Assembly: GCA_026398615.1 (NCBI GenBank)
Contig: JAPLSN010000008.1
Coordinates: forward strand, 1 to 64,000
Direction of reading: 5' to 3'
DNA length: 64,000 bases
DNA from: Spirochaetota bacterium
GTDB lineage: Bacteria > Spirochaetota > Spirochaetia > Treponematales > UBA12059
Both the position numbers and the translations under genes were made by a program. Of the stretch, positions 10,521-64,000 are shown one piece after another (position 1 is the first letter of the stretch; every line of letters begins with the position of its first letter). Under the pieces are notes generated by a model. That model was not told the DNA's origin and did no database searches. It worked only from the letters and a program-made list of their open reading frames with translations.

Positions 10521-11126
10521 ATGGAAGAGATCGTCACGACCGACGCGCTGGAACGCGAAATACTCGAAGACGCCAGGAAGAAGGCCGCGGCCCTCCTCAA
10601 GGCAGCCGACGAGGAGGCGCGCCGCGTCGCCCAGGCCGGCGAGAAACGGACGAAAGCCGCGCTGGCAGGGCTCGGGAAAGAATCGACGGCGAGGATCGAA
10701 CGCCACCGTTCCGAGACGGAGGCGCGCATTCCCCTCGAGAAATCCCGCCTGAGGACCACCTACCTGGACGACGCGCTCAGGTCCGCGACCAGGAGCTACT
10801 TCGCCGCGCTCCCGGATTCCCGGATAGCGGAGATCGCGGCGGCACTCCTGTCGGACGCGAAGGAATTCCTCAAGGCGAAAGCCGTCAGCCTGCGGTGCCG
10901 CGGGCTCGGGGCGGAATCGATGCGCGCGTTGGGCGCCTCCATACCGTGGGCCGCGTCGGTGTCGGTATCGGAGGATCCTTCGCTTCCGGCGTCCGGCGCC
11001 GTGGCCGAGACCGGGGACGGTGCCGTGACCCTGCGCGCGACGATGGACGTCGTCGCCTCGGACCTGCTGCGCGAAAAGCGCGGCGAACTGGCAGCGGCGC
11101 TCTGCGGAAAGGCGACAGAGATATGA
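10521..11126 (+). CDS. atpE: V-type ATPase subunit E (peripheral stalk)
   Basis: Peripheral stalk subunit of 201 residues. The N-terminal half (about 1-85) is a long Ala/Glu/Arg coiled coil that would pair with the first operon gene, and the C-terminal half is an alpha/beta head that clamps subunit B. GAGGAG precedes ATG 10521. The stop overlaps the A-subunit ATG as ATGA. The sequence is diverged, so the call leans on position, length and the coiled-coil plus globular layout. Confidence 0.85.
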
Positions 11127-12889
11127 TCACGGGGTACATCACGCGGGTATCGGGCCCCGTCGTCACTGCCGGCGGTCTCGGCGGCGCCGGGCTCTACGAC
11201 GTCGTGGAAGTGGGCGAAGCCCGCCTGATCGGCGAGATCATCCGCATGGACCACGTGGGTGCGGTTATCCAGGTCTACGAGGAAAATACGGGAATGCGTC
11301 CCGGGGAGCCGGTGGTTTCCCTCGGGCGGCCGCTGTCGGTGGATCTCGGCCCCGGCCTGCTCGGGTCGATCTACGACGGCATCCAGCGCCCCCTGGTCCA
11401 GCTGAAAGCCGCGTCGGGTTCCTTTCTCGCGCCGGGGGTGAAGGGCGAGGCCCTCGACCGCGCCCGGACGTGGCGCTTCGTTCCCGTGCTCCGCTCCGGC
11501 GATCCGGTGGAGCCCGGGACCCTGGTCGGACTCGTGAAGGAGACCGAGCTCGTCGAGCACCGGATTCTGGCTCCTCCCCTGACGCAGCCCGGCAGGGCGA
11601 CGCGCGTATCTCCCGAGGGCGACTACATCCTGGACGAAATCGTCGCCGAAACGGATTCAGGCGCCAGGATAGGCCTTTCGCACGACTGGCCGGTGCGGCG
11701 TCCGAGGCCCTGCCGGAAGAGGCTTCCGCCGGACGAGCCGCTCATCACGGGCTTGCGCGTCATCGACGTCCTGTTCCCGATCTCGAAGGGAGGCTGCGCG
11801 GCCGTTCCCGGAGGTTTCGGCACCGGCAAGACGATGACGCAGCACGCGATCGCCAAATGGTGCGACGCCGACATCATCGTGTACGTGGGCTGCGGCGAGC
11901 GCGGCAACGAGATGACCGACGTCCTCACGGACTTCCCGAAGCTCGTGGATCCCCGGACGGGGCGATCCCTCATGGAACGCACGGTCCTCATCGCCAATAC
12001 GTCCAACATGCCGGTGGCCGCTCGCGAAGTGTCCATCTATACCGGCATCACGGTCGCCGAGTACTACCGCGACATGGGTTACGATGTGGCGGTGATGGCC
12101 GACTCGACCTCGCGTTGGGCCGAGGCGCTCCGCGAGCTTTCGGGCAGGCTCGAGGAGATGCCGGCCGAGGAAGGCTTTCCCGCCTACCTCCCTACCCGCC
12201 TCGCGGAGTTCTACGAGCGGGGCGGCCGCGTGCAGACCCTCCGCGGCAACCCGGGCTCGGTGTCGATCATCGGCGCCGTATCGCCCCCCGGCGGGGACTT
12301 TTCCGAGCCCGTGACCCAGCATACCAAACGCTTCATCCGCTGCTTCTGGGCCTTGGACCGCGACCTCGCGAATGCCCGCCACTACCCGGCAATCTCCTGG
12401 ATCGATTCGTACTCGGAATACTCGGACGAACTCCGCGACTGGTGGGACGGCGTCGACGCCGACTGGCGCGACGTGCGCACCCGGGCGTTCGAGCTCCTCA
12501 AGCGGGAACAGCGACTCGAGCAGATCGTGCGCCTCATCGGCCCCGACGCGCTCCCCGACGAACAGCGGCTCGTGCTCATATCGGCGGACATGATCAAGAA
12601 CGGTTTCCTCCAGCAGAATTCCTTCGACGAAGTCGACAAGTTCTGCGTTCCCGCCAAGCAGGTGCTCCTCCTCCGCTGCATCATGGAATTCCACCGGAGG
12701 GCGGAAGCGGCGATCAAGGCCGGCGCGCCGCTCCCGAGGATCGTGGGGCTGCCGATCCGCGAACGTCTCGCGCGCCTGAAGAGCATCGTGCCGAACGACA
12801 ATCTCGACGAGATCCGGGCCGCCGAGAAGGAGATCATCTCCTCGTTCGATGAACTTTCCCGTCAGTACCGCAAGGAGGAGGCCCGATGA
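11123..12889 (+). CDS. atpA: V-type ATPase catalytic subunit A
   Basis: Catalytic nucleotide-binding subunit, 588 residues (usual length 580-600). The N-terminal beta barrel [18 protein letters not shown] is followed by the A-specific insertion, the P-loop [17 protein letters not shown], the catalytic-Glu region [12 protein letters not shown], and [13 protein letters not shown], all hallmarks of A-type catalytic subunits. In cells it hydrolyses ATP to pump ions or runs in reverse to make ATP. It overlaps both neighbours by four bases. ATG 11123 is chosen because the upstream frame is antisense-like Arg-rich sequence inside atpE. Confidence 0.97.
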
Positions 12890-55297: not shown

Positions 55298-56641
55298 TCA
55301 GTTCTGGAACGCGCGGAATTCGACCGGCGAACCGGGAGCGGCCATCGCGATGGCGCCGCTCAGGTCGCCTTCCGCGAGGGGCGAAAGCGTCAGCTTCGTG
55401 CCTTCGATCCTGTAGAGCCAGTGCGCGATCGCGTCCCGGCCGTCGTACTTCAGGCTGAACCCGCCGTTCCAAGACCCGTCCAGCGCGTCCGACACGAAGA
55501 TGTCAAGTTCGATCGACCCCTCCCCGGCGGTCAGTGCGGGATCCTCCGACGGCGCGGCCGCCGTGAAGCGCTTCGCCCGCGTGACGGTGAAGGTCGTCCC
55601 GTCATCCGATCCGCAGGGCGAAACCCGGACGATGCCCGCGAGGGCGGTCATCCGCCTGAGTTCTTCCGTCTGGACGATGACGCGGATGTCGCCCGGGAAG
55701 AGGGAGAAGCTCCGGGAATCAGGCGCATCTTCCTTTTCGAAAGTGACGGTCACCCGATCCTTGCCGTTGAAGGCGAGGACGACGGGCTGGTCGTCGAAGC
55801 GCCATGAACCGTTCTTCTGCCTCGTGATTGCCTCGTACTTCACGATCCTCGAGAGGTCGGGCAACTCGATCCTGATGGTCTTGCGCACCGCGTCGGGGAA
55901 CAGGCCGAAACGGAGGTCGAAGCGCGAGAGGTCGATCCTGCCGGACTCTGCCATCGTCGGAAACCAGTCCGGCCTCCAGGTCCTGCCGAAGAGCTGGGAC
56001 ACCTGGTCCGATCCCGCCGCGGCCGCATCCTCGAGCACGGGCCTGTCTTCCTTCGTTTCGTCGTACATCCTCAGCTGGTTGGAAAACACGTAACCGCGGG
56101 TGCCGTCCGTCGCGAGAGCCAGGTACCAGTCGCCCTCGAGGGGCTTGCCGCCGGTCATGACGACCTGTCCTTCGACCTTTTCGAGGAGCTTGACCGGTTC
56201 GGAGAACTTCAGGCGGTAAACCTGCTTTTCGAGGTTGGACGGCGCCTTCCTGAGGGCGAGGCCGTCACGGAGCGTGAGGCCGTATATACGCGCGAGGGCG
56301 CGGAAAGCTTGCGCGTAGCGTTCGGCTGCGGACTTGTTCGCAAAGGGTTCGATGCGCCAGAGCGGCACTTCGACATTTTCGCGCGTCCCGGGCGCTTCGA
56401 CGACGAAGACGTGGTTGATGTTGGACTTGATGCGGATCGGGACCACGGCGCCGCCCGGGATAGGCAGGTCTTTCGACGCGGGCGTCCCCTCGGCCACGTT
56501 CGTCCCCGTTCCCGCTTCCGCGGCCGCGGAGGGGTCGAAGGTCCACAGGACGACGCCCCAGCCGAACAAGCCCGAACAGCCCGACATGGAAGCGGCCGCG
56601 AAGGCCAGGACCATGGCCGGGAGGAAACGGCGCGATTTCAT
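55298..56641 (-). CDS. Lipoprotein with SH3-like segment, function unknown
   Basis: Lipid-anchored protein of 447 residues. The signal ends in the lipobox MSGC (Cys about 22). The first half includes an SH3-like stretch (EPVKLLEKVEGQVVMTGGKPLEGDWYLALATDGTRGYVFSNQLRMYDE); the second half is beta-rich (TIRIELPDLSRIVKYEAITRQKNGSWRFD, DIRVIVQTEELRRMTALAGIVRVS) and may bind a ligand or the cell wall. No enzyme motif. A -10 7 bases before the ATG suggests a leaderless message, and the ABC-F gene follows. Confidence 0.75.
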   Translation of the reverse strand: MKSRRFLPAMVLAFAAASMSGCSGLFGWGVVLWTFDPSAAAEAGTGTNVAEGTPASKDLPIPGGAVVPIRIKSNINHVFVVEAPGTRENVEVPLWRIEPFANKSAAERYAQAFRALARIYGLTLRDGLALRKAPSNLEKQVYRLKFSEPVKLLEKVEGQVVMTGGKPLEGDWYLALATDGTRGYVFSNQLRMYDETKEDRPVLEDAAAAGSDQVSQLFGRTWRPDWFPTMAESGRIDLSRFDLRFGLFPDAVRKTIRIELPDLSRIVKYEAITRQKNGSWRFDDQPVVLAFNGKDRVTVTFEKEDAPDSRSFSLFPGDIRVIVQTEELRRMTALAGIVRVSPCGSDDGTTFTVTRAKRFTAAAPSEDPALTAGEGSIELDIFVSDALDGSWNGGFSLKYDGRDAIAHWLYRIEGTKLTLSPLAEGDLSGAIAMAAPGSPVEFRAFQN

Positions 56642-56648
56642 GGGCGGA

Positions 56649-56678
56649 AGTCTACACCGCTCCGGGCGATTTCCGCAA
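56649..56678 (-). promoter_or_regulatory. Leaderless-type promoter of the lipoprotein/ABC-F operon
   Basis: Minus strand TTGCGG (56673-56678), 18 bp, TAGACT (56649-56654), then 7 bases to ATG 56641. Confidence 0.55.
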
Positions 56679-56787
56679 CACGGTCGGAACGGGCGAGCCG
56701 GCTCCCGGGCGGTCGCTTGTAATCCGCCGCGTCGGGAATTATCCTGATATCTCGGCATATCCGCAGCTTGTTTTTCGGGAGAGGCCC

Positions 56788-57771
56788 ATGGCGCACGGCA
56801 AGGAATATTCCCTCGGCATCGACATCGGCGGCACGAAGGTTCTCGCGACCGTGTTCGACGAAGGGATGCGGCCGGTCGCGACCAGCAAGGAACGGACGCC
56901 GACGGGCCACCCTGCTTCCGAGTTCGCGCGCATGGTTCATTCCGTCGGCGAGGCCGCCGCGAGGAAAACCGGGATGCCCCTGTCCGGGTTCAGGGCGATC
57001 GGCGCCGCCGTGGCGGCGCCCCTGGACCGGAAGCGCGGCTACGTGATCGAGGCGCCCAACATGGGGCTTTCCGACTACCCCTTGCGCGACGAATTGTCGA
57101 GACTCTTCGACCGGCCCGTCGTCCTCGAGAACGACGCGCAGGCAGGTGTCCTCGGGGAGCTCCGCGCGGGCGCCCTGAAAGGCTGCCGCACCGCGGCCGG
57201 GCTCTTCATCGGCACGGGGATAGGCGGCGGTATCGTCATCGACGGGCAGCTGTACCGCGGCTCGACGGGGTCCGCGGGCGAGTTCGGCCACATGACACTC
57301 CTCGAAGGCGGCCCGTCCTGCGGCTGCGGCGGCTACGGACATCTGGAAGCCCTCGCCTCGAGGACCTCCATGGCCAAGGACGCCGCGGCCGCCGCACTCG
57401 CGGGCAAGACGCCCGAGGCTTTCGCGGAGGCGGGAACCGACCTGGGAAAATTCAGGAGTTCCGTGTTCGAGAAATCGGTGGGCGCGGGGGAAACGGTGAC
57501 CAGGCGCATCGTCGAGCGTTCCGCGCTGTGGGTGGGCGTCGCGCTCGCGAACATCGTCGTCGCGCTGAACCCGGAAGCGATCGTGCTGGGCGGCGGCGTG
57601 GTCATGAGGTTCGGGGAAAGCTACCGGCGCGCGGCCGAACGCGCGATGGAGGAGCGCCTCATGCCGGGACTCGCGGCGACGGTGAGGATCCTGCTGTCGG
57701 TCCTGGGCGACGACGCCGTCGCCGCGGGCGCCGCGGCCGCGGCCATCGAGGCGGAAGGGGGCGGGGCGTGA
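56788..57771 (+). CDS. ROK-family sugar kinase
   Basis: Sugar kinase of 327 residues: phosphate-1 motif LGIDIGGTKVLATVFD, catalytic Asp in LENDAQAGVLGEL, and adenosine/phosphate-2 FIGTGIGGGIVIDG. The ROK zinc motif CXCGXXGCXE is changed to SCGCGGYGHLEAL, with His for the last Cys. No helix-turn-helix, so it is a kinase and not a repressor. Its stop overlaps the ppx start (GTGA), and ppk follows, so a polyphosphate-using glucokinase is a reasonable hypothesis. GGGAGAGG precedes the ATG. Confidence 0.88.
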   Translation: MAHGKEYSLGIDIGGTKVLATVFDEGMRPVATSKERTPTGHPASEFARMVHSVGEAAARKTGMPLSGFRAIGAAVAAPLDRKRGYVIEAPNMGLSDYPLRDELSRLFDRPVVLENDAQAGVLGELRAGALKGCRTAAGLFIGTGIGGGIVIDGQLYRGSTGSAGEFGHMTLLEGGPSCGCGGYGHLEALASRTSMAKDAAAAALAGKTPEAFAEAGTDLGKFRSSVFEKSVGAGETVTRRIVERSALWVGVALANIVVALNPEAIVLGGGVVMRFGESYRRAAERAMEERLMPGLAATVRILLSVLGDDAVAAGAAAAAIEAEGGGA

Positions 57772-59303
57772 GCGCGGGAACGGTGGCGGTCATAGAGATC
57801 GGTTCGACGGGCGTGCGCGCGGTGATCGCCGAGATCGATCCCGACGGGGCGTACCGGATCATCGACCGTGCCGAGAAGCCGGTCGCCTTCGGGCGGGACG
57901 TATTCAATTCGGGCGCCGTCAGCCGCGAGACGACCGGGCAGGCCATCGCGGTCCTGCGCGGCATGCGCGAGCTTCTCAGGTCGTACGGAATCGAGCCGAA
58001 AGACGCGCGCGTCATAGCGACGAGCGCGCTCAGGGAAGCGTCGAACCGGGACACCTTCGCGGACCGCGTCTTCCTGCGGACCGGATTTTCGGTGGACGTC
58101 ATCGAAGCCATCGAGGAAAACCACCTCATGTACCTAGCCGTGCGGCGGGCGCTCGGCGACGATTACCGGCAGATCGCCCGCTCCAATTCCGTGATCCTCG
58201 ACGTTGGCGGCGGTTCGACCGAAATTATGCTGCTGCGGAGGGGCAAGATGGCCGCCGCACACTCGCTGCGCATCGGTACGGTGCGGATCGACGAGCAGAT
58301 GAGGGCCGCGAGCGGCGTCGCCGATTACCTCTCACGCTACCTGTCGGACAACGTGCGCACGACCTGCGACATGCTCGACGCCGACCTGCCGCTTTCGAGC
58401 GTAAGAACCTTCATCGTGCTCGGCGGCGACGCCAGGACCGTGGCGCGCGCGGTGGGGCAGGCGACGGAGCGGGAGTACGCGGTCGTGACGAGGGCGAATT
58501 TCATCCGTTTCGTCGACGCTCTCGCCGGCCTCTCGCCCGAGGACATCGTCGAGCGCTTCAGGCTGCGCTACGACGAGGCGGAAGCCTTCGCCCCGGGGCT
58601 CACCGTGGCCAGGCTGTTCCTGGAGCGCACGAGCGCGGAAGACCTCGTCGTTCCGCTCGCCTCCATGCGGGACGGACTCCTCGTGGACCTGGCGGGCGGT
58701 CCCGACTCCAAATTCAGGAAGACCCTGGACGCGCAGGTTCTCGCGTCGGCAGTCAGCCTCGGGAGGAAATACCGCTTCGACGAAGCGCATTCGAAGCACG
58801 TCGCATCCCTCGCCGCGACGATTTTCGACCGCCTGGCTTCGGAACATGGCCTGGGCAGGCGGGAGCGCCTTCTCCTCGAGGCCGCGGCCATTTTGCACGA
58901 CGTCGGAACCTTCATACGCTCCGGCGGCCACCACCGCCACTCCGAGTACATCGTGCTCAACAGCGAGCTGTTCGGCCTCCATCTCGACGACCAGGTCATC
59001 GTGGCCAATTGCGTCCGCTACCACCGGAAGGCCGGGCCCAATTCGAGCCACCCAAATTTCATGGGGCTCTCGCGCGAAGACCGCACGATAGTCCGGAAGC
59101 TGGCGGCCATACTGCGCGTCGCCGACTCGCTCGACCGCGGGCACTCGCAATCCGTTTCGATCACGGGCGCGGAACTCAGGGAAGACCGGCTGGTACTGGC
59201 GACGGAATCCCGGGGCGGTGACCTGTCCCTGGAACGCGTGTCGCTCGCCGAAAAGGGCGACATGTTCGAGGATGTCTTCGGCCTCAAGGTGATGCTCTCA
59301 TGA
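57768..59303 (+). CDS. ppx: Ppx/GppA phosphatase with HD domain
   Basis: Exopolyphosphatase/pppGpp phosphatase of 511 residues: VAVIEIGSTGVRAVIAEI, ATSALREASNRDTF (second phosphate loop) and SVILDVGGGSTEIMLL. The C-terminal third (about 330-511) is an HD domain (AAAILHDVGTFIRSGGHHRHSEYIV with the His-Asp pair), as in E. coli Ppx. GTG 57768 overlaps the ROK stop, and its own stop overlaps ppk (ATGA). Confidence 0.92.
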   Translation: MSAGTVAVIEIGSTGVRAVIAEIDPDGAYRIIDRAEKPVAFGRDVFNSGAVSRETTGQAIAVLRGMRELLRSYGIEPKDARVIATSALREASNRDTFADRVFLRTGFSVDVIEAIEENHLMYLAVRRALGDDYRQIARSNSVILDVGGGSTEIMLLRRGKMAAAHSLRIGTVRIDEQMRAASGVADYLSRYLSDNVRTTCDMLDADLPLSSVRTFIVLGGDARTVARAVGQATEREYAVVTRANFIRFVDALAGLSPEDIVERFRLRYDEAEAFAPGLTVARLFLERTSAEDLVVPLASMRDGLLVDLAGGPDSKFRKTLDAQVLASAVSLGRKYRFDEAHSKHVASLAATIFDRLASEHGLGRRERLLLEAAAILHDVGTFIRSGGHHRHSEYIVLNSELFGLHLDDQVIVANCVRYHRKAGPNSSHPNFMGLSREDRTIVRKLAAILRVADSLDRGHSQSVSITGAELREDRLVLATESRGGDLSLERVSLAEKGDMFEDVFGLKVMLS

Positions 59304-61438
59304 AGCGCGGCCGGGGTGGAGGATCGATGAAGGATCAGGTCAGGCTGTTCAACCGGGAGCTGTCCTGGGTGGAATTCAACGCGCGCGTGCTCGAGGAGGC
59401 CCTCGACCGTTCGAACCCTCCGCTGGAACGGCTCAAGTTCATCTCGATCGTCGGCTCGAATTTCGACGAATTCTTCATGGTCAGGGTCGCCGCCATCAAG
59501 GCCGCGATACGTTCCGGGGAAGCGATGCCCGACGCTGCCGGGATGACCCCGGAAGCCCTGCTCGCGGCGATCGGGCACAGGGTCCGCGAGCTGACGGCGA
59601 AAGCCAACGAGTGCATGGCGAACGACATCCTGCCTGAGCTTGCCGGGGCCGGACTCGTCGTCCTGCGTCCCGCGGCCTGGACGCCTTCCCAGATGATGAA
59701 CCTCGGGGAGTTCTACCGCAACCGCGTCGTACCGACCCTCACCCCGCTTTCCGTCGGACACGAGTGCGGCTTCCCGAGCACGGGGAACCTGCGTATCCAC
59801 GCAGCCTTCCTCCTCGAGCCCGACGACGGAATCGGGGATCCGGCCGGCAGGCGGCTCGCGATCGTCCAGGTGCCGCACAACGTGGAGCGTTTCGTGCCGG
59901 TGGCCTCCGACGACGGGACGACCCGCGTGGCGCTGCTCGACGATATCGTCCTCGCGTTCGGGCATTCGCTGTTTCCCGGCTATTCGGCGCGGGAGCGCAT
60001 CCTCTTCAAGGTCACCCGCGACGCCGATATCGGCGTGGACGAGGACCGCGACGACGACTTCGTGGCGGCCATGGAGGAAGTCCTCGTGAACCGGCAGAAC
60101 TCCTGGCCGGTCTGCCTCGCCGTCTCCGAAGGTTCCGCGGAGCTCCGCGACATGCTGCGGGATGCCGTCGGGCTCTCCGAAGGCGACGTCTACGGGATGG
60201 CGGGGCAGATCGACCTCCGTTCCTTCATGGAGCTGTCCCAGGTGAAGGGATTCGACTCCCTGCGGTTCCCGCCCGCCAAGCCCGCAGAAACCGGGGCTTT
60301 CTCCGGGGAGCGATCCGTCTGGGACGAGATCCTGAAGCGTGACATCCTCCTCCACGTGCCCTACGAGTCGTTTTCCCCAGTCATCCGTTTCGTGGAGGAA
60401 GCCGCCTTCGACCCCGCCGTCCTCGCCATCAAGATGACCCTCTACAGGACCTCCGGCGATTCCCCGGTGGTGAAAGCCCTCACCGCCGCCGCCCGGAACG
60501 GCAAGCAGGTGACGGTCGTCGTGGAGCTCAAGGCCAGGTTCGACGAAGCCCGCAACATCGCCTGGGCCGGCCGGCTCGAGCAGGCCGGCGCCATCGTCGT
60601 CTATGGGCTCGCGAGGCTCAAGGTCCACGCGAAGGCCATCCTCGTGATCCGCCGGGAGGACGACGGCTCGATTCTCAGGTACGCGCACCTGTCGACGGGC
60701 AACTACAACGACAGGACGGCCAGGCTCTACGCCGACCTCTCCCTGTTCACGGTGAACGAGGCGGTCTGCTACGACGTCGGGCTCTTCTTCAACGCGATCA
60801 CCGGGGTCTCCGACATGAGGGAATTCAGGACCATCGCGGTGGCTCCCTTCGGGCTCAAGCGCCGGATCATCTCGATGATAGACCGGGAAGCGGAGCGCAG
60901 CACCCGGGAAAACCCGGGGCTCATCATGGCGAAAATGAACGCGTTGGCTGACGTCGACGTGGTGGAAGCCCTCTACCGCGCGTCCTCGCGGGGCGTACGG
61001 GTGCTCCTCAACGTGCGCGGGGTCTGCGTCCTCGTCCCGGGCGTCCCGGGGTTGTCGGAAAACGTCACGGTGGTCTCGGTGGTGGGCCGGGTGCTCGAGC
61101 ACGCGCGCGCGTTCCACTTCAGGAACGGCGGCGCTGGGGAAACCTACCTCTCGTCGGCGGACTGGATGCCGCGCAACCTGGACCGCAGGATCGAACTCCT
61201 GTTCCCCGTGTTCGACGAACGGGCGCGCGCCAGGGTCCGGGACGTGCTCGAATCCTATTTCAGGGACACGAGGAAAGCCCGCGTCCTGATGCCGTCGGGC
61301 GAATGGCGGAAGGCGAAGCCGGCGGACGGGGCGGAACCCTTTTCCGCCCAGGACAGCTTGCGGCAGCGGGCCGAATCCCTCGTCGCCGGGGTCGACGAAG
61401 ACAGCCGGGATTCCCTCGTCGTGCGCCGCAAGCCCTGA
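59300..61438 (+). CDS. ppk: Polyphosphate kinase 1
   Basis: Makes long-chain polyphosphate from ATP, 712 residues. The N-terminal domain FNRELSWVEFNARVLEEALD and the two catalytic histidines are present: LKVHAKAILVIRRE (phosphorylated His) and RYAHLSTGNYNDRTARLYADLSLFT. It is coupled to ppx by ATGA, giving synthesis and breakdown of polyphosphate from one message. ATG 59327 (MKDQVRLF) is an alternative start nearer the usual N-terminus. Confidence 0.96.
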   Translation: MKRGRGGGSMKDQVRLFNRELSWVEFNARVLEEALDRSNPPLERLKFISIVGSNFDEFFMVRVAAIKAAIRSGEAMPDAAGMTPEALLAAIGHRVRELTAKANECMANDILPELAGAGLVVLRPAAWTPSQMMNLGEFYRNRVVPTLTPLSVGHECGFPSTGNLRIHAAFLLEPDDGIGDPAGRRLAIVQVPHNVERFVPVASDDGTTRVALLDDIVLAFGHSLFPGYSARERILFKVTRDADIGVDEDRDDDFVAAMEEVLVNRQNSWPVCLAVSEGSAELRDMLRDAVGLSEGDVYGMAGQIDLRSFMELSQVKGFDSLRFPPAKPAETGAFSGERSVWDEILKRDILLHVPYESFSPVIRFVEEAAFDPAVLAIKMTLYRTSGDSPVVKALTAAARNGKQVTVVVELKARFDEARNIAWAGRLEQAGAIVVYGLARLKVHAKAILVIRREDDGSILRYAHLSTGNYNDRTARLYADLSLFTVNEAVCYDVGLFFNAITGVSDMREFRTIAVAPFGLKRRIISMIDREAERSTRENPGLIMAKMNALADVDVVEALYRASSRGVRVLLNVRGVCVLVPGVPGLSENVTVVSVVGRVLEHARAFHFRNGGAGETYLSSADWMPRNLDRRIELLFPVFDERARARVRDVLESYFRDTRKARVLMPSGEWRKAKPADGAEPFSAQDSLRQRAESLVAGVDEDSRDSLVVRRKP

Positions 61439-61468: not shown

Positions 61469-63232
61469 TCAGGAGAGCCCGGTGATCTTTCCCGTTTCGG
61501 TATCGATGTCCATTCCCATGAAGGCGGGTTTCGAGGAGAGGCCCGGCATGGTGCTGATTTCGCCCGAGATCGGGTAGATGAAGCCGGCGCCCGCCGCCAG
61601 GCGGATGTTGGTCACGGGGAAGACGAAGCCTTTCGGCGCTCCCTTGACCGACGGGTCGTGCGACAGCGAGTACTGGGTCTTGGCCATGCAGATCGGGAGT
61701 CCCGCGCAGCCGATGTCGGTGTAGGTGGCGATGGACGCTTCCGCTTCAGCCGTGTAGGTGACCGATCCCGCGCCGTAGACTTCGCGGGCGATGCGCTCGA
61801 TCTTCTCCTTGATCGTGAGCTCGAGCGGGTAGAAGGGCTTCACGTCGTGCGGCGTGGAAGCCGCCCTGTCGACGGCCTTCGCGAGTTCCACCGCGCCGTC
61901 GCCGCCCTGCGCCCAGTTGTGGACGACCACGGCGTCCGCGGCCCCGGCCTTCACGGCAGCCTCGCGGACCAGGTCCCACTCGGCCGGGGAATCGCTCGGG
62001 AACGCGTTGATGGCCACCACCGCCGGGATTCCGAACATTCTGACGATGCGCAGGTGCTCGACGAGGTTGGGCACTCCCTTGCGGACGAGTTCGGCGTTTT
62101 CTTCCTTGTATTCCCTGGCCAGCGGCTTGCCGGGGACGACCTTGGGGCCGCCGCCGTGCATCTTGAGGGCGCGGATCGTGGCCACCACGACCGCGGCGTC
62201 CGGGTACAGTCCGCTCGTCCTGCACTTGATGTCCAGGAATTTCTCGAGCCCCATGTCGGCGCCGAATCCGCTTTCCGTGATGACGTAATCCGAGATGCGC
62301 GTCGCGGCTATGTCCGCGAGGATGGAACTGTTCCCGTGGGCGATATTCGCGAACGGGCCCGCGTGGACGAACGCCAGCTGTTCCTCGAGGGTCTGGAGGA
62401 TGTTGGGCTGGAGGGCGTCCTTGAGGAGTATCGTCATCGCGCCCGCGACGCCCATGTCCTCGGTGGTGATGGCCTTGCCGGAGCGGTCGACGCCGACCAC
62501 GATACGGCCTATCCGCTCCCGGAGGTCGCGGAGGCTCTTCGCCAGCGCGAGGATCGCCATGACCTCGCTCGCGACGGCGATGTCGAACCCGGATTCCCGC
62601 AAGGGGGCGTTGTCGAGGCCGCCGACGCCGAGGATGATCTTGCGCAGGACCCTGTCGTTGATGTCGACGACGCGGCGCCACCAGATGTTGTACTGGTCGA
62701 AATTGAGCTTTTTCAGCCCCTGCTTTTCGAAATACGCGTCGCTCCAGCGGCTCTCGTGGTAGACGCGGGCGTCGAGCGCCGCCGCGCACAGGTTGTGGGC
62801 CGCCGCGACGGCGTGGATATCCCCCGTGAGGTGGAGGTTGAAGTCTTCCATGGGGACTATCTGGCTGTAGCCGCCGCCGGCCGCGCCACCCTTGATGCCG
62901 AAGGTCGGGCCCATCGAGGGCTGGCGGATGGCGCAGGAGGCTTTCTTCCCGATCTTCCCGAGTCCCTGCGCAAGGCCGACGGTCGTGGTCGTCTTGCCCT
63001 CCCCGAGCGGGGTCGGCGTGATGGCGGTGACGTCGATATACCGGGCACGCACCGGTTTCTTTTCGAGTTCCCTGATGAATGCGAGACGGACCTTGGCCTT
63101 GTACCTGCCGAACAGGTCGATGTCGTCCGGACCGATGCCGTACCCGGCGGCGATCTCGGAAATGGGGCGGATCCTGGCTTCCTGGGCGATCACGATGTCG
63201 CTTGGAACGGGGCTGCGTTTCTCTATGGACAT
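61469..63232 (-). CDS. fhs: Formate-tetrahydrofolate ligase
   Basis: ATP-dependent 10-formyl-THF synthetase of 587 residues (usual about 555-560). ATP loop TPTPLGEGKTTTTVGLAQGL, FGIKGGAAGGGYSQIVPMEDFNLHLTGD, and the TESGFGADMGLEKFLDIKCR stretch are diagnostic. It feeds formate into the one-carbon pool, typical of anaerobes. A GAGGAGG SD and a good promoter precede it. The 5-formyl-THF cyclo-ligase at 24036 works in the same pool. Confidence 0.97.
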   Translation of the reverse strand: MSIEKRSPVPSDIVIAQEARIRPISEIAAGYGIGPDDIDLFGRYKAKVRLAFIRELEKKPVRARYIDVTAITPTPLGEGKTTTTVGLAQGLGKIGKKASCAIRQPSMGPTFGIKGGAAGGGYSQIVPMEDFNLHLTGDIHAVAAAHNLCAAALDARVYHESRWSDAYFEKQGLKKLNFDQYNIWWRRVVDINDRVLRKIILGVGGLDNAPLRESGFDIAVASEVMAILALAKSLRDLRERIGRIVVGVDRSGKAITTEDMGVAGAMTILLKDALQPNILQTLEEQLAFVHAGPFANIAHGNSSILADIAATRISDYVITESGFGADMGLEKFLDIKCRTSGLYPDAAVVVATIRALKMHGGGPKVVPGKPLAREYKEENAELVRKGVPNLVEHLRIVRMFGIPAVVAINAFPSDSPAEWDLVREAAVKAGAADAVVVHNWAQGGDGAVELAKAVDRAASTPHDVKPFYPLELTIKEKIERIAREVYGAGSVTYTAEAEASIATYTDIGCAGLPICMAKTQYSLSHDPSVKGAPKGFVFPVTNIRLAAGAGFIYPISGEISTMPGLSSKPAFMGMDIDTETGKITGLS

Positions 63233-63318: not shown

Positions 63319-64000
63319 TCAGGCGAAGACGATGCCGGCCCGGGCGACGGCCGTATCCCCGCGCCTGAGTTCGGTGACGACGCGGCCATCCACGATTTCG
63401 GAAGAGCACGCGGTCAGCTCGTCGCCGGGCAGGACTTCCGCGCGGAACTCCACCTTGAGTTCACGGAGCGCCGGTTCGTCGGAGCCGCGAGCTGCGGCTG
63501 CGGACGCGGCATCGACGAGCCAGTCCACGAGGTGGGCATTGTTGACGTGGCCGTTGTGGTCCACGTGCCTCGGCCGCGCCCGCTGGGAAAAGGAGGGGGA
63601 CCGGGCGCCCATCGGGGGGACAGAAAAGTCGAGGTCGGGCACGGGCGAAGGTTCGTCGCAGCGCAGGTCGACGGGTACGACGCGTTCCGGCCGGACGGGG
63701 CGCCGCGCCGCGACGTCGACGACGAGGTAGGCGTAGACGGCGCGCACGAGGACATTCCCGTCCGTCCCGAGCATCCTGAAACAGCGCAGGGCGAAGAGCC
63801 GGTCGAGGCCTGCTGGCCAGGTTTCCACGACCACGCGGTCGCCGGAAACGGGCAACGCGTCCACCCTGATGTCGGTTTTCGAGATCATCCAGGTCATGCC
63901 GCTTTCCATGAGGCGCCCCACGCCCAGCCCGAGGGCCGCGGCGTGTTCCCCGGCGGCTTCCTGCAGCCAGTTCGTCAGCGTCATGGCCCTGAACGGCCCG
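63319..64000 (-). CDS. Acyl-ACP thioesterase, 5' end outside the window
   Basis: Fatty acyl-ACP thioesterase family protein; 221 residues from the first ATG plus five more codons to the window edge. Double hotdog fold: LTNWLQEAAGEHAAALGLGVGRLMESGMTWMISKTDIRV, then RPRHVDHNGHVNNAHLVDWLVDA with the catalytic Asn/His region (DHNGHVNNAHY-like). Full-length relatives start 10-15 residues before MTLTNWLQEAAG, and the frame stays open to base 64000, so the true start lies beyond. It releases fatty acids from ACP. Confidence 0.85.
   Translation of the reverse strand, partial: GPFRAMTLTNWLQEAAGEHAAALGLGVGRLMESGMTWMISKTDIRVDALPVSGDRVVVETWPAGLDRLFALRCFRMLGTDGNVLVRAVYAYLVVDVAARRPVRPERVVPVDLRCDEPSPVPDLDFSVPPMGARSPSFSQRARPRHVDHNGHVNNAHLVDWLVDAASAAAARGSDEPALRELKVEFRAEVLPGDELTACSSEIVDGRVVTELRRGDTAVARAGIVFA

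Follow-up and report, generated by a model that had tools for sequence, protein, structure and literature searches.

Is a sugar kinase that is encoded in one row with the enzymes of polyphosphate metabolism also driven by polyphosphate? This question is raised by a ROK-family kinase gene found upstream of an exopolyphosphatase gene with an HD domain (ppx) and of polyphosphate kinase 1 (ppk1), in a Spirochaetota bacterium. An earlier note on this DNA had proposed a polyphosphate glucokinase unit.

Layout of the gene row

The window, meaning the whole stretch of 64,000 nucleotides that was analysed, has the ROK kinase, ppx and ppk1 genes head to tail, all on the + strand. The three proteins score well above the cut-offs of their own Pfam families. 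The features are the following:

56788..57771, + strand: ROK-family sugar kinase, 327 residues; PF00480 at 194.7 bits (gathering cut-off 22.9)
57289..57348, + strand: zinc-site region of the ROK kinase, residues 168-187 (H168, C178, C180, H185)
57768..59303, + strand: Ppx/GppA-type exopolyphosphatase with domain III/HD, 511 residues; PF02541, PF21447 and HD domain PF01966
59300 or 59327 to 61438, + strand: polyphosphate kinase 1 (ppk1); TIGR03705 at 756.7 bits, above cut-off
55298..56758, − strand: divergent gene with a weak SH3_3 domain (Pfam match)

The earlier note had the three genes joined by GTGA and ATGA overlaps. The first is confirmed, with GTGA at 57768-57771 being the ROK stop that overlaps the GTG start of ppx. 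The ATGA at 59300-59303 is also present, but an ATG at 59327, with GGAGG 4 nt upstream, rivals it as the start of ppk1. At the loci L038, L043 and L044, the longest ppk reading frames likewise overlap ppx by 4 nt. ROK and ppx are probably co-translated, since the stop of one overlaps the start of the other. By gene position, ppx and ppk1 form a ppx-ppk operon, being adjacent and on the same strand (57768-61438). On the − strand, convergent to the operon, lie a formate-tetrahydrofolate ligase gene (61469-63232) and an acyl-ACP thioesterase-like gene (63319-63984).

Linkage of the kinase gene to ppx and ppk

A search of 194 genomes of the order returned a sharp group of 15 orthologues, including the window's own, with at least 283 bits and the next match at 151. 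All 15 have ppx directly downstream, and ppk follows ppx in 12. In G015, contig ends lie beside ppx and beside ppk. For G003 and G048, ppk is on another contig and is absent from the 8.7 and 2.8 kb read past ppx; ROK remains paired with ppx despite this.

The class-level search matched 47 of 394 genomes at E 1e-52, four of them already among the 15 order orthologues. Of the other 43 relatives, 42 have ppx directly downstream, and the last one (L240) ends 327 bases past the kinase gene. The synteny that the earlier note proposed to check in relatives is real and wide: of the 58 class orthologues, 57 are followed directly by ppx and the remaining one is cut by a contig end. As for ppk in the class relatives, it was read from 13 longer stretches, the flanks of the other 30 being too short, and it is visible in 12; the 13th is L240. 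Within flanks of at most 1.5 kb, 15 further ROK loci from the order and the five other ROK loci of the window's own genome all lack ppx. Judged by gene order, the ROK-ppx-ppk linkage is more than chance.

Seen from the side of ppx, the order search gave 30 loci, with ROK upstream in 14 and no ROK in 16, two of the latter (L092 and L108) having less than 0.3 kb of upstream sequence. A relative of the window's divergent gene (55298-56758) directly adjoins ppx in 10 of these 16 ROK-less loci. The ROK gene thus comes and goes as one piece, with ppx-ppk remaining in place. Among 30 ppk loci, 26 have ppx within 1.5 kb upstream, and two of the other four are cut by contig ends. At one locus (L047, 2318-4336) ppx is split over two reading frames with an internal stop, which is either a broken gene or a sequence error.

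In the rest of the phylum, ppx comes directly after ROK in 6 of 11 loci (L196-L206). A further scan of named genomes was done by ROK sequence alone, with neighbours ignored, and the best 80 of 472 relatives were considered. In these best 80, ppx lies directly after ROK in 26, nine of them order members, leaving 17 of the 71 others. Still within the best 80 of 472, the pair was found, among others, in an Omnitrophota bin (L131), in Verrucomicrobiota (L120, L122, L125-L127, L129, L151, L157, L161, L171 and L185) and in Thermotogota (L144 and L172). Pfam assigned Ppx/GppA to all nine neighbours checked (L120, L122, L126, L131, L144, L151, L172, L185 and L198).

Some variations of this arrangement were found. 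A Chloroflexota bin has the order ppx-ROK-ppk (L128, 4774-8000), with Ala at the second zinc Cys of its ROK, and L134, L179 and L190 have a convergent ppk gene at a distance of 0.1 to 0.6 kb from ROK. Some Verrucomicrobiota, for example L122 and L127, have the ROK-ppx pair with no ppk within the stretch read. A bond of ROK tighter with ppx than with ppk is seen in these, as in G003 and G048, but it is not a general rule, since ppk is nearer to ROK in L134, L179 and L190.

Some neighbouring genes can be mentioned here. In two Verrucomicrobiota bins, the gene after ROK-ppx-ppk encodes a protein that combines Ppx domain III with a CHAD domain (L151, 10855-12345; L161, 10778-12262). In the ROK-ppx-ppk locus of L120, a gluconolactonase-type gene (10618-11475) overlaps the end of ppk.

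A quick method was used to build a tree of 116 ROKs, from rows picked for their likeness to the window protein and in some cases with flanks of only 1.5 kb. The window's ROK falls in a 23-row branch in which all 23 are ppx-linked (SH-aLRT 97). The ppx label changes 7 times on this tree, against an average of 35 when shuffled, and the starred branches force at least five changes of linkage. The near-identical ROK-ppx loci of L122, L123 and L124, labelled Akkermansia, Klebsiella and Proteobacteria, group with Verrucomicrobiota, and from this placement their bin labels look wrong.

Family, fold and zinc site of the kinase

PF00480 is the single Pfam domain above cut-off in the window's ROK. A ROK repressor is unlikely, given the lack of a second Pfam domain above cut-off and a phosphate motif that starts close to residue 9. 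In terms of NCBIfam models, the ROK glucokinase model TIGR00744 comes first, at 173.1 bits, below its curated cut-off of 260.35. This is also the best model for all ten kin scanned one by one; its cut-off is reached by only one of the ten (L156, not ppx-linked) and by none of the six ppx-linked kin scanned. Since the window's ROK and these six kin miss this cut-off, the sugar may not be glucose. When the 15 order members were scanned, with bits taken for the window protein only, all 15 matched the same 13 families at E 0.001, including TIGR00744 and the polyphosphate-glucose phosphotransferase model. The models of N-acetylmannosamine, allose and N-acetylglucosamine kinases match all 15 as well, the window protein being below all their cut-offs.

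The polyphosphate-glucose phosphotransferase model itself (NF045942) gives the window's ROK 35.3 bits for a cut-off of 250, with a weak match to the N-terminal half (residues 8-171). In the genome search with this model, the window's ROK had 33.9 bits and another ROK of the same genome 41.1. No polyphosphate glucokinase above cut-off was found in the 116 genomes of the order. On the curated score, we reject membership in the known polyphosphate glucokinase family.

The AlphaFold2 model of the window's ROK has a pLDDT of 88.9 and a pTM of 0.89. Its nearest folds, by Foldseek and VIA, are the glucokinases 3vgk and 2qm1 and the ROK hexokinase 3vov, with the best VIA match at Z 34.8 over 320 residues. 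The polyphosphate/ATP glucomannokinase 1woq appears at rank 48 in Foldseek and at rank 22 in VIA (Z 28.3 over 248 residues). Thus the polyphosphate glucokinase suggested by the earlier note gains no family support from either scores or folds.

Next, the sugar and catalytic residues (N115, D116, E165, H168 and E187) and the phosphate residues (D12, T16, K17 and T143) are all present. N115, E165, H168 and D12 are conserved in 116 of 116 aligned ROKs and D116 in 115, and E187 is kept in all 43 ppx-linked rows of this alignment. All 43 class relatives have N115, D116, E165, H168 and E187; over the nine catalytic places read, only two of these relatives depart: L238 has Ser instead of T16, and L251, cut short by a contig end, lacks D12. 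With a residue mapping made in the present analysis, these places correspond to residues that were observed or mutated in NagK, a GlcNAc kinase, in the available part of PMC10031466. Because the catalytic and sugar residues are kept, the window's ROK should be an active hexose kinase.

It would be a second kinase, since an ordinary Glk (group A glucokinase, PF02685) is also present. This was found in every one of the 14 orthologue genomes that belong to the 116-genome set (the 15th, G154, lies outside it), including the window's own genome (C35:117566-118570, 211.7 bits), and the ROK as the only glucose kinase of the cell is rejected on this count. The hexokinase PF03727 is found in 1 of the 14 orthologue genomes and in 63 of 102 others, both traits following the families of the order.

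Lastly, the zinc motif SCGCGGYGHLEAL is present in the window's ROK, with His185 in place of the usual last Cys. It reads C-G-C-G-G-Y-G-H-L-E against C-x-C-G-x2-G-C-x-E, so that one of the three Cys is His, a residue itself able to bind zinc. The earlier note was right about this His, but not in taking it to set the protein apart from ordinary ROK glucokinases. The full motif with the last Cys is found in all 14 other order orthologues, which have the same neighbour. The 43 class relatives comprise 36 with H-C-C-C, six with H-C-C-H and one (L194) lacking all three Cys. The His is no clear marker, because it occurs in 6 of 43 class relatives and in none of the 14 nearer orthologues. We reject it as a functional marker because orthologues that have the same neighbour differ at this place, and the one substitution in the window's ROK is no clear sign of polyphosphate use. 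The polyphosphate glucokinases of methanotrophs are reported without CXCGXXGCXE (available part of PMC6406325); the window's ROK deviates from this motif at one residue and its nearest orthologues at none. L194 is a ppx-linked ROK where the three zinc Cys are lost at the places aligned to 178-185, and the catalytic residues read are still there.

Among the 116 ROKs, changes at 178, 180 or 185 were found in 5 of 43 ppx-linked rows (four with His, and L194 with all three lost) versus 1 of 73 others. The single row of the latter kind is L128 (C180 to Ala), itself a ppx-ROK-ppk locus. Over the 116 ROKs and the 43 class relatives, changes of zinc ligands are confined to ROKs beside polyphosphate genes, in a comparison that is post hoc and made on rows related to each other. 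The CGCG pattern used in the named-genome scan biases it towards loci where the first half of the motif is intact. Rows L111-L119 and L197 duplicate the sequences of retained rows and were dropped before the 116 were counted.

Readings of the operon and known systems

PPK1 synthesises polyphosphate from ATP, in a reaction that is reversible, and Ppx breaks the polymer down by hydrolysis. The explanation that we favour, with moderate confidence, is a polyphosphate operon with a built-in ROK hexose kinase that is ATP-dependent, co-translated with Ppx and second beside Glk. By descent, the kinase is most likely ATP-dependent. The ROK gene would make a hexose 6-kinase, for which the catalytic residues are all observed, and this enzyme would use ATP. 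One hexose kinase would be made whenever the polyphosphate enzymes are made, and through this joint production sugar phosphorylation and the polyphosphate store, both drawing on the same ATP and phosphate, would be set together. Some points speak against this explanation. With ATP as the donor, it is not directly evident why the kinase should be linked so strictly to an exopolyphosphatase, and a second plain ATP-glucokinase beside the ordinary Glk looks redundant. Furthermore, in the sequences compared, zinc ligands change only in ROKs beside polyphosphate genes, and the link as read from gene order is weaker outside the class (6 of 11 phylum loci, and 17 of 71 others in the best 80 of 472).

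Alternatively, polyphosphate may be a donor for ROK, either the only one or together with ATP, and this ability would have arisen outside the known polyphosphate glucokinase family; the operon would then make, trim and spend polyphosphate, with Glk using ATP. This is unlikely, and it stays alive because of the strict class-wide ROK-ppx pair and the separate Glk. All 14 genomes have a further glucokinase, from a different family, and in this they resemble Methylomonas sp. 12, which has one ATP and one polyphosphate enzyme according to the available part of PMC6406325. The pair also recurs in other phyla and in different gene orders, and the changes at 178, 180 and 185 only beside polyphosphate genes, with L194 lacking all three Cys, agree with polyphosphate use. 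Such a donor is harder to reconcile with a score of 35 out of 250 bits, with the retained C-x-C-G part of the zinc motif, with a protein longer than the 267-residue chain of 1woq and with the low fold ranks of the latter (48 and 22). It is similarly doubtful that these proteins would be a second, independent polyphosphate-using ROK line, locked to ppx across the Spirochaetota class and with kin in other phyla, in which some zinc sites were loosened or lost in parallel with the known polyphosphate glucokinases.

An ATP-dependent kinase acting on another sugar (mannose, N-acetyl-mannosamine/-glucosamine, allose or another), in an operon that serves an envelope or stress need, is improbable too. 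The existence of an ordinary Glk and the matches of all 15 order members to the N-acetylmannosamine, allose and N-acetylglucosamine kinase models would fit it, but the window protein and all ten kin get their highest score from the glucokinase model. Moreover, no gene of such a sugar pathway was found among the four window neighbours scanned, and the gene overlapping ppk in L120 is of gluconolactonase type.

Finally, it is very improbable that the pair is kept only through inheritance and its place in the operon, the kinase having no metabolic connection with polyphosphate: the ppx label does follow the ROK tree (7 changes against 35), close relatives keep ppx-ppk without a ROK gene, so that the polyphosphate enzymes do not need it, and many kin outside the class in the best 80 of 472 have no ppx at ROK, but the pair persists where ppk lies elsewhere, at least five linkage changes are forced, and the same partners occur in other arrangements in L128, L134, L179 and L190.

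So strict a pairing of ROK with ppx suggests that sugar phosphorylation and polyphosphate are connected; no description of such a connection was found in one open-access library, searched mostly at listing level. If the kinase uses ATP, as in the explanation we favour, the operon is an example of how carbon use can be coupled to the polyphosphate store. If it spends polyphosphate, this trait arose more than once within the ROK family. As for the gene row ROK-ppx-ppk, the available parts of PMC6406325, PMC5932413, PMC4252912, PMC10031466, PMC6864096, PMC3163519 and PMC5728499 hold no description of it.

Compared with the ROK glucokinases and hexokinase (TIGR00744; 3vgk, 3vov and 2qm1), the window's ROK shares the fold, the length, the catalytic and sugar residues and most of the zinc motif. 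It differs in its score (173 of 260 bits), in its place beside ppx and ppk and in the His for the last zinc Cys. With the polyphosphate glucokinase/glucomannokinase (NF045942; 1woq) it has the ROK fold in common, at Z 28.3 over 248 residues, and is 60 residues longer than the 1woq chain, with C-x-C-G kept. The phosphate-3 motif is a proposed polyphosphate site in the available part of PMC4252912. The likeness to the polyphosphate enzyme of Methylomonas sp. 12, as far as the source is available, is that of a second kinase beside another glucokinase. Adjacent ppx and ppk1 are shared with the E. coli type ppk-ppx operon (available parts of PMC5932413 and PMC3163519). In the window, ppx comes first, whereas in E. 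coli it is downstream of ppk (PMC3163519, same part), and, unlike in the E. coli type, a ROK kinase precedes ppx in 14 of 30 ppx loci.
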